NCBI RefSeq assembly: GCF_900110555.1
Contig: NZ_FOEE01000003.1
Span: forward strand, 186,001-250,000
Reading direction: 5' to 3'
From: Trujillonella endophytica
GTDB lineage: Bacteria; Actinomycetota; Actinomycetes; Mycobacteriales; Geodermatophilaceae
DNA length: 64,000 nucleotides
In this document: piece after piece, positions 17,492 through 20,552 of the stretch
How the letters are laid out: each line of letters begins with the position of its first letter
Position numbering within the stretch: the stretch's first letter is position 1
Position numbers and translations under genes: made by a program
The notes under the pieces: generated by a model
The model's input: only the letters and a program-made list of their open reading frames with translations
Told to the model about the DNA's origin: nothing
The model's database searches: none

Positions 17492-17600
17492 GGCCGGTGT
17501 ATCGACTCCAAGGAGTCCGAGCTTGAGGGGTCGAACCCCTTCTCTTCACTCCAAGCGGGGGCCATGCTGTCCCACCGTGCTTCCGCAGCCACGGCGTGTG

Positions 17601-19940
17601 ATGACGTCGTCCTCCCCGGACCCTGCCGCGGGGGCGCGCGGGGCCGACCCGCTGCCGCTCCTGCCGACCGCGGCGGTCGCGTCCGCGGGCGCGCTGCTCG
17701 TGGTCGCCGTCGGGCTGGCGTTCGTGATGCCCCCGGACGTGCACGACCGCGTCGTGTCGAACCTCGCGCAGCTCGTGGCGCCGGCCGCGGCCGCGGGGAC
17801 GCTGCTGCGCCGCGCGCGGCGTTCCCGGGGCCGGCTGCGCGCGACGTGGGCCGCCCTCGGCGGCGCCTGCGCCTGCTGGGCGGCGGGGCAGGCGTGGTGG
17901 GCGGCGCAGGAGATGACCGGGGCGGGCATCCCCTTCCCGTCCGTCGCGGACGTGGGCTTCGTGGCCTTCGCGGTGCTGGCCGCCGTGGGGCTACTCCTGC
18001 ACCCGGCCGGGGGTGGCGGCCGCGGCCGCTGGCGGCGGACGTCGGACGCGGTGATGTGCACCGGGGCCGTGGGCCTGGTCAGCTGGCAGTTCGTGCTGGG
18101 GCCGGTCGTGGCCCGGGAGACCGGGACCCCATACCTCGAGTGGCTGCTGTTCCTGACCTACCCGGCGCTGGACGTGGCGCTGATCGTCCTCTGCCTGCTC
18201 ACCGCGGCCCGGGCCCGGCGGCAGCGACCGGACCTGCTGCTGGTCTGCGCGGGACTGCTGGCGCTCAGCATCTCCGACGGCACCTTCGCCTACCTGCAGG
18301 CCACGATGATGTACGCCGGATTCTCGGCCGACCTCGGCTGGGTGGTCGGTTTCCTCCTCCTGGCGCTGGCCGGCGCGGCCCGCGAGCCCGCCGCCCGCGA
18401 GCCGGAGGAGGGGCAGCCCGAGCGGGACGGCGGGTCCCTCGTCGCTCACCTGCTGCCCTACGCCCCCGTGGCGGTCGGGCTCGTGACGACGGTGGTGCAC
18501 GTCGCCCTCGGCTGGGAGCTGGGCATCGTCGAGGTCGGGCTGTCCACCGTGGTGATCGCGCTGCTGCTGTCCCGCCAGTACCTGGCCCTGCGGGAGAACC
18601 TCCGGCTGTCGGCCGAGCTGGCCGGCCGCGAGGCGCTGCTGCGGCACCAGGCCTTCCACGACGTGCTGACCGGCCTGGCCAACCGGGCACTGTTCCTCGA
18701 CCGGCTCGAGCACGCGCTGGCCCTGCACCGGCGCGACCTGCGCCCCGTCGCCGTCGTGTTCCTCGATCTCGACGACTTCAAGGTCGTGAACGACACCCTG
18801 GGGCACGCGGCCGGGGACGAGCTGATCGTCCGGGTGGCCGAGCGGCTGCGCGGGGCGATGCGGGACGGCGACACGGTCGCCCGGCTGGGTGGGGACGAGT
18901 TCGCGGTCCTGCTCGAGGACGGCGGGGACGCCGAGGAGGCGACCGCGCGGGCCCTGGAGGCGCTGCGGACCCCATGCCTCGTCGGCGGCCGCCCCGTGGC
19001 GGTCCGGGCCAGCGTGGGCATCTGCGGGCTCGGCCCGGACGACCCGCCGGTGCGGCCCGACACCCTGCTCGCCCGGTCCGACACCGCGATGTACGCGGCC
19101 AAGCGCTCCGGCAAGGACAAGGCCGTCGTCTACCGGCCGGGCCTCAGCCTGGAGGAGGTCGAGCTGGAGGGGCTGGCCGAGCGGCTGCGCCGGGCGCTGG
19201 CCGCGCGGGAGGTGACGCTCGCCTACCAGCCGATCGTGGACCTGGTCACCGGCCGGGTCGTGGCGCTGGAGGCGCTCGCCCGCTGGACGACGGAGGGTCG
19301 CGCGGTCGGTCCGGAGGTGTTCGTGCCGGCCGCGGAGCGGGCCGGGCTGCTCGACGAGCTGACCGGCCAGCTGCTGGCCCAGGCCTGCGAGCGCGCCGCC
19401 GGCTGGGCGGTCGACCGCGACGACGTCCTGTCGGTGCACGTCAACGTCGCGCCCGCGACGCTCGCGTGGCCGGAGCTCGTGCCCCGGGTGCGGGACCTCG
19501 TCGACTGGCACGAGCTCGTGCCCGGCCAGTTGGTGCTCGAGCTGACCGAGTCCGGCCTGCTCGCCCACGAGGAGGCGGCCGAGCGGGTGATCCGCGAGCT
19601 CGCCGACCTCGGGGTGGGCGTCTCGCTGGACGACTTCGGCGTCGGCCAGTCCTCGCTCGCGCGCCTGGGGGCGCTCTCCCTGGAGTCGGTCAAGATCGAC
19701 CGGTCGTTCCTGGCGCGGATCGACACCGACGAGCGCGAGGCCACGCTGCTGGGCGCGGTCTTCCGGCTCGCTCGCGACCTCGCCCTGCCGGTGATCGCCG
19801 AGGGGGTCGAGCGGCCCGGGCAGCTCGCGGCCCTGCGGCGGATGGGCTGCCCGCAGGCGCAGGGGTTCCTGCTGTCCCGCCCCGTGCCGGCCGCGGCGGT
19901 GCCCGACCTGCTGGGCAGCCGCGGCGTCCTCACCGGCTGA
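17601..19940 (+). CDS. Membrane GGDEF-EAL dual c-di-GMP enzyme
   Basis: 779 residues from ATG 17601 (GTG 17598 adjacent). Around ten hydrophobic segments occupy the first 330 residues. The GGDEF domain has LGGDEF and an RDGD I-site; the EAL domain has EALARW, ELTESG, DDFGVG, KIDRSF, AEGVE and QGFLLSRP. All catalytic residues of both domains that I can recognise are present, so it may synthesise and degrade c-di-GMP. Its neighbour across a short divergent promoter region is a second cyclase. In streptomycetes c-di-GMP controls BldD; whether that applies here is unknown. Confidence 0.92.
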   Translation: MTSSSPDPAAGARGADPLPLLPTAAVASAGALLVVAVGLAFVMPPDVHDRVVSNLAQLVAPAAAAGTLLRRARRSRGRLRATWAALGGACACWAAGQAWWAAQEMTGAGIPFPSVADVGFVAFAVLAAVGLLLHPAGGGGRGRWRRTSDAVMCTGAVGLVSWQFVLGPVVARETGTPYLEWLLFLTYPALDVALIVLCLLTAARARRQRPDLLLVCAGLLALSISDGTFAYLQATMMYAGFSADLGWVVGFLLLALAGAAREPAAREPEEGQPERDGGSLVAHLLPYAPVAVGLVTTVVHVALGWELGIVEVGLSTVVIALLLSRQYLALRENLRLSAELAGREALLRHQAFHDVLTGLANRALFLDRLEHALALHRRDLRPVAVVFLDLDDFKVVNDTLGHAAGDELIVRVAERLRGAMRDGDTVARLGGDEFAVLLEDGGDAEEATARALEALRTPCLVGGRPVAVRASVGICGLGPDDPPVRPDTLLARSDTAMYAAKRSGKDKAVVYRPGLSLEEVELEGLAERLRRALAAREVTLAYQPIVDLVTGRVVALEALARWTTEGRAVGPEVFVPAAERAGLLDELTGQLLAQACERAAGWAVDRDDVLSVHVNVAPATLAWPELVPRVRDLVDWHELVPGQLVLELTESGLLAHEEAAERVIRELADLGVGVSLDDFGVGQSSLARLGALSLESVKIDRSFLARIDTDEREATLLGAVFRLARDLALPVIAEGVERPGQLAALRRMGCPQAQGFLLSRPVPAAAVPDLLGSRGVLTG

Positions 19941-19946
19941 GCGCCC

Positions 19947-20228
19947 TCAGAGCCGGCCGCGGCCCTGCCGCAGCAGCATGAGCGCGAGGGCGGCGCCGTC
20001 CTCCCCGAGAGCCGACCGGAAGCGGGCCAGGACCTGCGACTCGCGCGAGAGGGAGAGCCGGGTGCCGCCCGAGGCGGCGCGCAGGGCGCCGATCTCGCGC
20101 GAGACGGCGAGGCGGCGCTGGACGAGCTCGATGATCCCGGCGTCGCAGGCGTCGATCTGCTCGCGCAGCGCGCCGATGCGGTCGGCGGGGTCGGTGGTGG
20201 GAGCGGGGCTCGGGGCGGGCGTGCTCAT
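19947..20228 (-). CDS. Chorismate mutase (AroQ class)
   Basis: 93-residue all-helical enzyme converting chorismate to prephenate, the branch to Phe and Tyr. Key features: IGALREQIDACDAGIIELVQ, the basic pair in QRRLAVSREIG, SGGTRLSLSRE and the C-terminal LALMLLRQGRGRL. The last is the same tail as M. tuberculosis Rv0948c, a mutase that is activated by DAHP synthase. ATG 20228 has an AGGAGA site. It is preceded by a putative leader peptide and terminator (20281-20406). Convergent with the GGDEF-EAL gene, divergent from uvrD as in mycobacteria. Confidence 0.93.
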   Translation of the reverse strand: MSTPAPSPAPTTDPADRIGALREQIDACDAGIIELVQRRLAVSREIGALRAASGGTRLSLSRESQVLARFRSALGEDGAALALMLLRQGRGRL

Positions 20229-20280
20229 CGGGGTTCTCCTGCGGGTCGGGCCGCCGGCCGTCGGACCCCGGGAACGAGAA

Positions 20281-20309
20281 ACGCCCCGGGCTCCTCGGGC
20301 CCGGGGCGT
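20281..20309 (-). terminator. Attenuator terminator ahead of chorismate mutase
   Basis: Perfect 11-bp stem (20281-20291 with 20299-20309) with a 7-base loop. Read on the minus strand it is followed by TTTCTCGTT, a U-rich tract; the plus strand has none, so it is directional towards chorismate mutase. It lies 17 bases downstream of the leader ORF stop and 52 bases before the mutase start. Confidence 0.8.
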
Positions 20310-20325
20310 CTGGTGCGGCGTGTGC

Positions 20326-20406
20326 TCAGCCTGCGGTGACGGACACCGGATCCCGGTGGCCGTAGTAAAAGCTGATCGCGGCGAGCACGGGGCGATCCTG
20401 CCACAT
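20326..20406 (-). CDS. Putative aromatic leader peptide (attenuator)
   Basis: 26-codon ORF on the minus strand: Met-Trp-Gln start, core AAISFYYGHRDPV, then TGA. A Trp and a Phe-Tyr-Tyr run in so short an ORF ahead of a chorismate mutase gene and an intrinsic terminator is the classic layout of ribosome-mediated attenuation. An alternative GTG start at 20388 has AGGAT at good spacing and keeps Phe-Tyr-Tyr. A small hairpin (CACCGG-GAT-CCGGTG) follows the Tyr codons inside the ORF. Function is inferred, not demonstrated. Confidence 0.7.
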   Translation of the reverse strand: MWQDRPVLAAISFYYGHRDPVSVTAG

Positions 20407-20474: not shown

Positions 20475-20480
20475 TACAGT
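20475..20480 (+). promoter_or_regulatory. -10 element upstream of uvrD
   Basis: TACAGT, nine bases before the ATG of a short upstream ORF (20490); transcription would begin at or within two bases of that ATG. Confidence 0.5.
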
Positions 20481-20489
20481 GGTGTCGCT

Positions 20490-20552
20490 ATGAACCCACC
20501 CCACGCAGACGCTCCGCCGGCGCTCCACGTCTCCGCGGGGACCCCGGCATGA
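20490..20552 (+). CDS. Short upstream ORF coupled to uvrD
   Basis: ATG 20490 opens 20 codons (MNPPHADAPP start, ending SAGTPA) and stops at TGA 20550-20552, overlapping the uvrD start as ATGA. With a -10 element nine bases before its ATG it could be translated from a leaderless mRNA and feed ribosomes into uvrD, which has no clear ribosome site of its own. No homology recognised. Confidence 0.4.
   Translation: MNPPHADAPPALHVSAGTPA

Follow-up and report, generated by a model that had tools for sequence, protein, structure and literature searches.

A probable attenuator with Phe and Tyr codons ahead of the small chorismate mutase gene of Trujillonella endophytica, and related leaders in Actinomycetes

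Is the small AroQ-type chorismate mutase (CM) gene of Trujillonella endophytica controlled through the amino acids to which its product leads? Prephenate, the product of CM, leads to Phe and Tyr, and CM serves these two amino acids only. An earlier note on this DNA had proposed that a short minus-strand ORF with aromatic codons, followed by a hairpin, forms an attenuator of the gene. The window analysed here is the whole stretch of 64,000 nt (assembly GCF_900110555.1, contig NZ_FOEE01000003.1, positions 186,001–250,000), and all coordinates are relative to it. We consider it highly probable that the element ahead of the CM gene (Table 1) is a ribosome-mediated transcription attenuator that reads the charging of Phe- and Tyr-tRNA.

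The CM protein scores 102.9 bits against NF005894 (cut-off 73) and 73.6 bits against TIGR01808 (cut-off 52.15); by NCBIfam identity and pathway knowledge, the gene behind the leader is one for the amino acids that the leader codons would sense. Along the minus strand the order is TGTGGCAGGAT-CGCCCC-GTGCTCGCCGCGATCAGC-TTT-TAC-TAC-GGCCACCGGGATCCGGTGTCCGTC...TGA, 16 nt, an 11-bp inverted repeat, a short U-rich tail and the CM ATG at 20228, which lies 52 nt from the end of the terminator stem. The upstream, divergent gene encodes a PcrA-type helicase. On its side (20475–20552, plus strand) a 20-codon ORF starting at ATG 20490 lies behind a TACAGT −10-like element, and its TGA overlaps the pcrA ATG at 20549; in two sister genomes (L003, L005) the TACAGT element runs straight into the pcrA start, so the window seems to have an insertion of ~59 nt before pcrA. 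A gene for a GGDEF-EAL-type protein (17523–19940, plus strand) is convergent with the CM gene; 6 nt separate their stop codons.

Table 1. Features of the CM locus (window coordinates)
Feature	Position	Strand	Basis or remark
Extended −10 element TGTGGCAGGAT	20395..20405	−	Sequence and family comparison
Leader ORF GTG...TGA, VLAAISFYYGHRDPVSVTAG, 20 codons	20326..20388	−	Leader with F.YG in 108/108 family genomes
Sensor codons TTT TAC TAC (Phe-Tyr-Tyr)	20362..20370	−	Residues 1 and 3 invariant in family
Pause/competitor hairpin (arm 1 20363–20353, arm 2 20349–20339)	20339..20363	−	10/11 pairs
Antiterminator 5′ strand (CCGGTGTCCGTC)	20338..20349	−	Predicted fold with arm 1 masked; inferred
Antiterminator 3′ strand (GACGCCCCGG), also terminator 5′ arm	20301..20310	−	Predicted fold; inferred
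Intrinsic terminator hairpin ACGCCCCGGGC / GCCCGGGGCGT	20281..20309	−	11 nt, 100% complementary; −27.2 kcal/mol
Short U-rich tail after terminator stem	20273..20281	−	5 T in 10 nt after CCGGGG
AGGAG, Shine-Dalgarno-like, of CM gene	20236..20240	−	By inspection
CM gene, small AroQ type, 93 aa, putative regulated gene	19947..20228	−	NCBIfam profile scores

The ORF described in the earlier note (20406–20326, with TTT-TAC-TAC at 20370–20362) is present as stated, and comparison with relatives moves its start. CM is present in 109 of 112 genomes of the window's family, of which one (G019) was dropped at a contig edge, leaving 108 with usable upstream DNA. Throughout this set the shared start codon is GTG (20388 in the window). 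Both the ATG at 20406, which had been taken as the leader start, and the Trp codon that had been placed near it lie within the conserved extended −10 element, outside the leader, and were rejected as parts of it. In most relatives the element reads TGTGGCA[G/C]ACT, and its hexamer is CAGACT in 64, CACACT in 37 and another sequence in 7 of the 108 genomes. From the end of the −10 to the GTG the spacing is 7 nt in 81/108 and 6 nt in 27/108, the window having 6 nt. Such a spacing implies that transcription starts at about GTG 20388 and that the 20-codon ORF is probably leaderless; conservation of the frame, together with the fixed distance from −10 to GTG, suggests that it is translated. A sigma-70 consensus scan returned no site.

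A GTG-start leader with F-x-Y-G, placed 6–7 nt after the −10 and before CM, is found in all 108 family genomes. The invariant Phe is encoded by TTT in 103 and by TTC in 5 of them, and the invariant Tyr by TAC in 105 and TAT in 3, while the codon between the two may be Tyr, Ser, Phe, Ala, Pro or Leu. Codons in most positions before the pair vary as well. The earlier note had named loss of the aromatic codons in relatives with conserved flanking DNA as one outcome that would refute its reading; the comparison did not refute it, since F-x-Y-G is kept in 108/108.

Outside the family the element was followed from two directions. A covariance model of it (E ≤ 0.01) matched at least 138 of 394 class genomes, and 68 of the matches outside the family were opened (28, and 40 more), of which 29 lie before CM, 25 before type I DAHP synthase and 14 before neither, one of the latter (L198) at E = 1.4e-5; in L196 and L198 an ORF passes a loose form of the search rule and has no aromatic cluster. 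Gene-first, with the leader disregarded, 29 strong CM loci were taken from 118 class genomes, the window's own included, with second copies in two genomes (G211, G222) and weak matches left out; one locus (L165, 97 nt upstream) was dropped. In 26 of the remaining 28 loci (25/27 without the window's own) a short leader with clustered Phe and Tyr codons precedes CM, as it does in 108/108 within the family; 23 were found by the strict rule and three (L163, L166, L167) by a relaxed rule only. In L149 and L151, from one genus (g14) of the same order, the −10 and a leaderless short ORF are kept with no Phe/Tyr cluster and no evident terminator, an apparent loss of control.

The rule used in these searches asks for a −10-like hexamer, 6–7 nt, an ATG or GTG and an ORF of 14–36 codons with an aromatic cluster. 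Over both strands of the window it fires once, at 20388. In the other loci of at least 1.4 kb (921 kb in all, a total that counts both strands and any overlap between loci) there are 26 further matches off the leader list, every one of which is built like these leaders.

A mycobacterial-type set comprises the best 80 of 315 CM loci, mostly from Mycobacterium and relatives, with some MAGs that are otherwise labelled. A leader is found by rule in 67 of these best 80 (for example VLSPQRRFFYGYRSAVPVGI). The 13 misses, partly read by eye, divide into seven leaders with the first Tyr replaced, three truncated leaders and three loci without a leader. In the seven (L268, L296, L299, L302, L304, L316, L321) the Phe TTT stays where the first Tyr codon is replaced, and another Tyr codon remains inside the hairpin. 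In three of the 13 (L276, L303, L312) the attenuator is gone and the CM gene itself apparently begins a few nt downstream of the conserved −10; these are possible natural constitutive variants.

Leaders of the same layout stand before type I DAHP synthase, the enzyme of the first step towards Phe, Tyr and Trp alike. By rule they are found in 22 of 23 cases among the model matches. A gene-first survey gave a DAHP synthase match in 53 of 118 genomes, of which 52 were examined (G114 was left out), and a leader in 24 of these 52 loci; for L224 and L235 a proper upstream region was lacking, and an F-A-Y ORF in L221 (family f11) and a loose ORF in L250 were left uncounted. Otherwise, no DAHP synthase leader was found by rule in families f11, f13, f22 and f29 in this survey. 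What sets these leaders apart is Trp, which occurs in 37 of 41 DAHP synthase leaders (one leader per genome, one of the 41 read by eye; for example MQRNFWRFYGYRPDTPVACRALR) and in 21 of the 24 from the gene-first survey alone, as against 0/108 CM leaders within the family and 5 of 47 outside it (again one per genome). The 41 lean to one family because many came from model matches, and in one of the 37, from genome G204, the Trp falls outside the aromatic cluster. Sister leaders before DAHP synthase come from several actinobacterial families (L129, L131, L175–L189, L191, L193, L195, L203, L204, L206, L207, L209, part of L210–L240, L245 and L247).

The choice of Phe codon is also unusual. In the family leaders 106 of all 136 Phe codons are TTT, as against 2 of 310 in ORFs of the window, this background being the 32 long high-GC3 ORFs of the window alone; given its rarity there, TTT in the leader looks selected. 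It is less dominant outside the family, where it makes up 33 of the 60 Phe codons of 32 CM leaders and 19 of the 35 of 21 DAHP synthase leaders (a hand list), and it stands at the first Phe of the mycobacterial-type cluster in 64 of 67 leaders. We lean, with modest conviction, towards a system of leaderless attenuators for aromatic amino acids that spans the class Actinomycetes: the codons would follow the branch (Phe and Tyr at CM; Phe, Tyr and Trp at DAHP synthase), the rare conserved UUU may act as a stall amplifier, and the enzyme placed under attenuation would depend on the DAHP synthase of the genome.

The RNA structures behind the sensor codons are conserved as well. The CACCGG-GAT-CCGGTG hairpin that the earlier note had pointed out as a pause stem is present at 20357–20343, and is part of a longer stem than was then stated, with 11-nt arms of which 10/11 are paired (ACGGCCACCGG/CCGGTGTCCGT; local fold −11.0 kcal/mol). 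Its arm 1 begins within the last Tyr codon, which places the hairpin at or just after the sensor codons. For the family alignment 45 non-redundant members were picked and 44 used, L010 being left out for a disturbed terminator. Ten or eleven of the 11 pairs of the leader hairpin form in 43 of these 44 sequences, with the mismatch mostly at one of two neighbouring positions. With the hairpin in its short form and the terminator taken together, 97.1% of alignment cells are paired, as against a mean of 95.1% in shuffled and at most 52.1% in slid controls, and four pairs show double changes where shuffles give 1.5; two of the pairs with double changes are in the terminator. Both the proposed pause stem and the terminator are thus conserved with compensatory changes. 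A 36-nt segment that begins at the last sensor codon folds on average better than shuffles: its mean z is −1.46 in the 108 family leaders (47 below −1.5), −1.32 in 32 CM leaders outside the family (16 below −1.5) and −2.20 in 21 DAHP synthase leaders (18 below −1.5). A long-range stem between the leader 5′ end and the stop region, which appears in many folds, was rejected: in the family 73.2% of its cells are paired and its covariation equals that of shuffles.

The perfect 11-bp hairpin 52 bases before CM is borne out as an exact repeat (20309–20299 / 20291–20281). The gap between ORF and hairpin is indeed short, at 16 nt from the TGA and not the 17 given before, and the U-rich tail exists in a modest form (CGTTTCTCGT). 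The stem, its energy and its double changes point to an intrinsic terminator between leader and gene, with a short U-tract. Its pattern is matched in 107 of 108 family genomes, the exception (L053) having a disturbed terminator, and 85 of the 107 carry a tail with at least 5 T in 10 nt. A strict terminator scan gave no site.

The alternative pairing that the earlier note had suggested, of CCGG and CGTC words with the terminator 5′ arm, is seen in predicted folds. When the front edge of the ribosome is set 13 nt downstream of the first base of the last sensor codon, the predicted stalled-state fold of the window pairs CCGG..CGTC with GACG..CCGG once arm 1 is covered, and the terminator 5′ arm is 77% occupied compared with 23% when the whole leader is free. 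In 12 family members the mean arm pairing is 0.74 stalled versus 0.36 free. The switch is weak in CM leaders from outside the family (0.66 versus 0.56, n = 32) and absent in DAHP synthase leaders (0.59 versus 0.61, n = 21), with some terminators misplaced by the finder. Energetically the antiterminator of the family does not surpass shuffled sequences (mean z −0.18, n = 12; window +0.13), and its pairs are either invariant or broken, with no covariation; outside the family it beats shuffles on average (z −1.21 at CM, −1.56 at DAHP synthase). When cognate and swapped antiterminator duplexes were compared, for which 134 of 161 elements passed the filters of this arm-swap co-evolution test, the cognate one was better in 13 of 22 lineages, which is not significant (p = 0.105).

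In the attenuator proposed here, RNA polymerase would start at or beside GTG 20388 and a ribosome would load directly at the 5′ end, the RNA being leaderless. With Phe- and Tyr-tRNA charged, the ribosome would reach the TGA, where it would cover the antiterminator strand or let the leader hairpin re-form, and the 11-bp terminator would halt transcription ~50 nt before the CM gene. Under a shortage of Phe or Tyr it would stall on TTT-TAC-TAC, so that the ribosome would wait there and keep arm 1 of the hairpin open; the freed arm 2 (CCGG..CGTC) could then pair with the terminator 5′ arm (GACG..CCGG), and transcription would enter CM. With the start moved to GTG, ribosome-mediated attenuation sensing Phe and Tyr, the central proposal of the earlier note, is supported by the conservation of the leader, the paired hairpins and the link to the gene.

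Three rival explanations were considered. The leader could be translated without sensing anything, feeding ribosomes to CM or limiting its expression, with the hairpin as a fixed partial terminator. The modest U-tract would suit this, as would an antiterminator no better than shuffles in the family and a fold switch that is weak or absent outside it; what it leaves unexplained is the conservation of the Phe and Tyr codons, the rare TTT and the Trp codons at DAHP synthase. That leader codons follow the branch position is predicted by the sensing of tRNA charging, but by neither a fixed terminator nor a protein operator, and we regard a non-sensing leader as improbable. An operator or riboswitch, in which a DNA palindrome or RNA structure is bound by a protein or ligand and the ORF is fortuitous, appears to us the most remote of the explanations. 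CACCGGGATCCGGTG is a good palindrome and the RNA is conserved; however, the palindrome differs in sequence among lineages while codon content and layout stay. A search with Rfam 15 cis-regulatory families, T-box included, gave nothing at gathering score in seven related loci, and nothing convincing at the window locus, where the only two matches were both below gathering and unrelated.

Family conservation does extend beyond the aromatic codons into GHRxPVSV, which would fit a nascent peptide (FxYGHRxPVSV) that responds to a metabolite, rather than to tRNA charging, by halting the ribosome from within the exit tunnel. However, the hairpin is itself encoded by the stretch past the aromatic codons, and at the usual position of its mismatch the wobble base of the Gly codon varies, being C, T, G or A. 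The peptide that follows is unrelated elsewhere (FTYGNRPTGCHGRAA, FFYGYRSAVPVV, FYGDRARSPLHR), and in folds a hairpin still comes after the aromatic codons. Arrest by the peptide is therefore, in our judgement, quite unlikely, and we retain attenuation through tRNA charging as the preferred reading.

If so, the committed enzyme of Phe and Tyr synthesis is a likely target of attenuation in the window's family, in mycobacteria and probably in Streptomyces, to which family f21 probably corresponds. The natural variants provide built-in controls, some with the first Tyr replaced and Phe kept and others with the attenuator missing and CM right after the −10, and the contrast between CM and DAHP synthase leaders, together with the conserved rare UUU, yields testable predictions on how leaders are tuned. 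Seliverstov et al. (2005), who likewise compared genomes for attenuators before amino-acid genes, found in Actinobacteria no conserved RNA structures before phenylalanine and tyrosine operons, as far as the accessible part of that survey goes (PMC1262725); RNA control of Phe/Tyr genes in Actinobacteria, as proposed here, would fill this gap. Such control is not known to have been described for this small AroQ CM in actinobacteria, and none at a stand-alone CM appears in the literature searched, which was accessible in part and lies mostly outside subscription journals; the accessible portions of the main text of three mycobacterial papers (PMC13236596, PMC4633059, PMC9094748) mention neither chorismate nor Rv0948c. 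As far as searched, there are no reports of CM as the target, of this breadth, of a conserved rare Phe codon or of the contrast between Phe/Tyr and Phe/Tyr/Trp leaders.

The elements of the proposed mechanism nevertheless have relatives. Polycysteine leaders in mycobacteria, a finding ascribed to Canestrari in 2020, are reportedly leaderless attenuators. In Streptomyces lividans eight leaders are described (two Leu, two Trp and one each for Ala, Ile, Met and Thr), none of them, in the part of the report available, for Phe/Tyr or CM (PMC8079986). Like the leader studied here, trpL, ilvL and leuL of that species are, in the same part, leaderless short ORFs that contain codons for the amino acid being made, some of them with a terminator behind, but they concern other amino acids.

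In Escherichia coli, translation of pheL starts behind a Shine-Dalgarno sequence, the leader contains many Phe codons, and the gene that follows encodes a bifunctional P-protein. The pheL-pheA system of Escherichia coli, in which a Phe-codon leader attenuates chorismate mutase-prephenate dehydratase according to the accessible text of a later paper (PMC11802643), shares with the present locus a leader with Phe codons, attenuation and a chorismate mutase activity downstream. Unlike it, the leader here probably begins at a leaderless GTG, contains one or two Phe codons plus Tyr codons and precedes a stand-alone small AroQ enzyme.

The aroR leader of Corynebacterium glutamicum, which is leaderless, is the closest precedent. 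It carries Phe-Tyr-Phe, precedes aroF, a DAHP synthase gene (Neshat et al., 2014; PMC11802643, PMC4046766), and, by the sections of these reports that could be consulted, responds to Phe limitation, not to Tyr (PMC11802643). Both are actinobacterial aromatic leader peptides before a gene of the aromatic pathway. The two differ in leader sequence and in target: the gene downstream of the window leader is CM, not DAHP synthase, and genome G000 gave no match to the type I DAHP synthase query. The DAHP synthase leaders collected here in turn differ from aroR in that they mostly (37/41) carry Trp too. The best explanation of the locus is that a known kind of mechanism has been applied to a new target.
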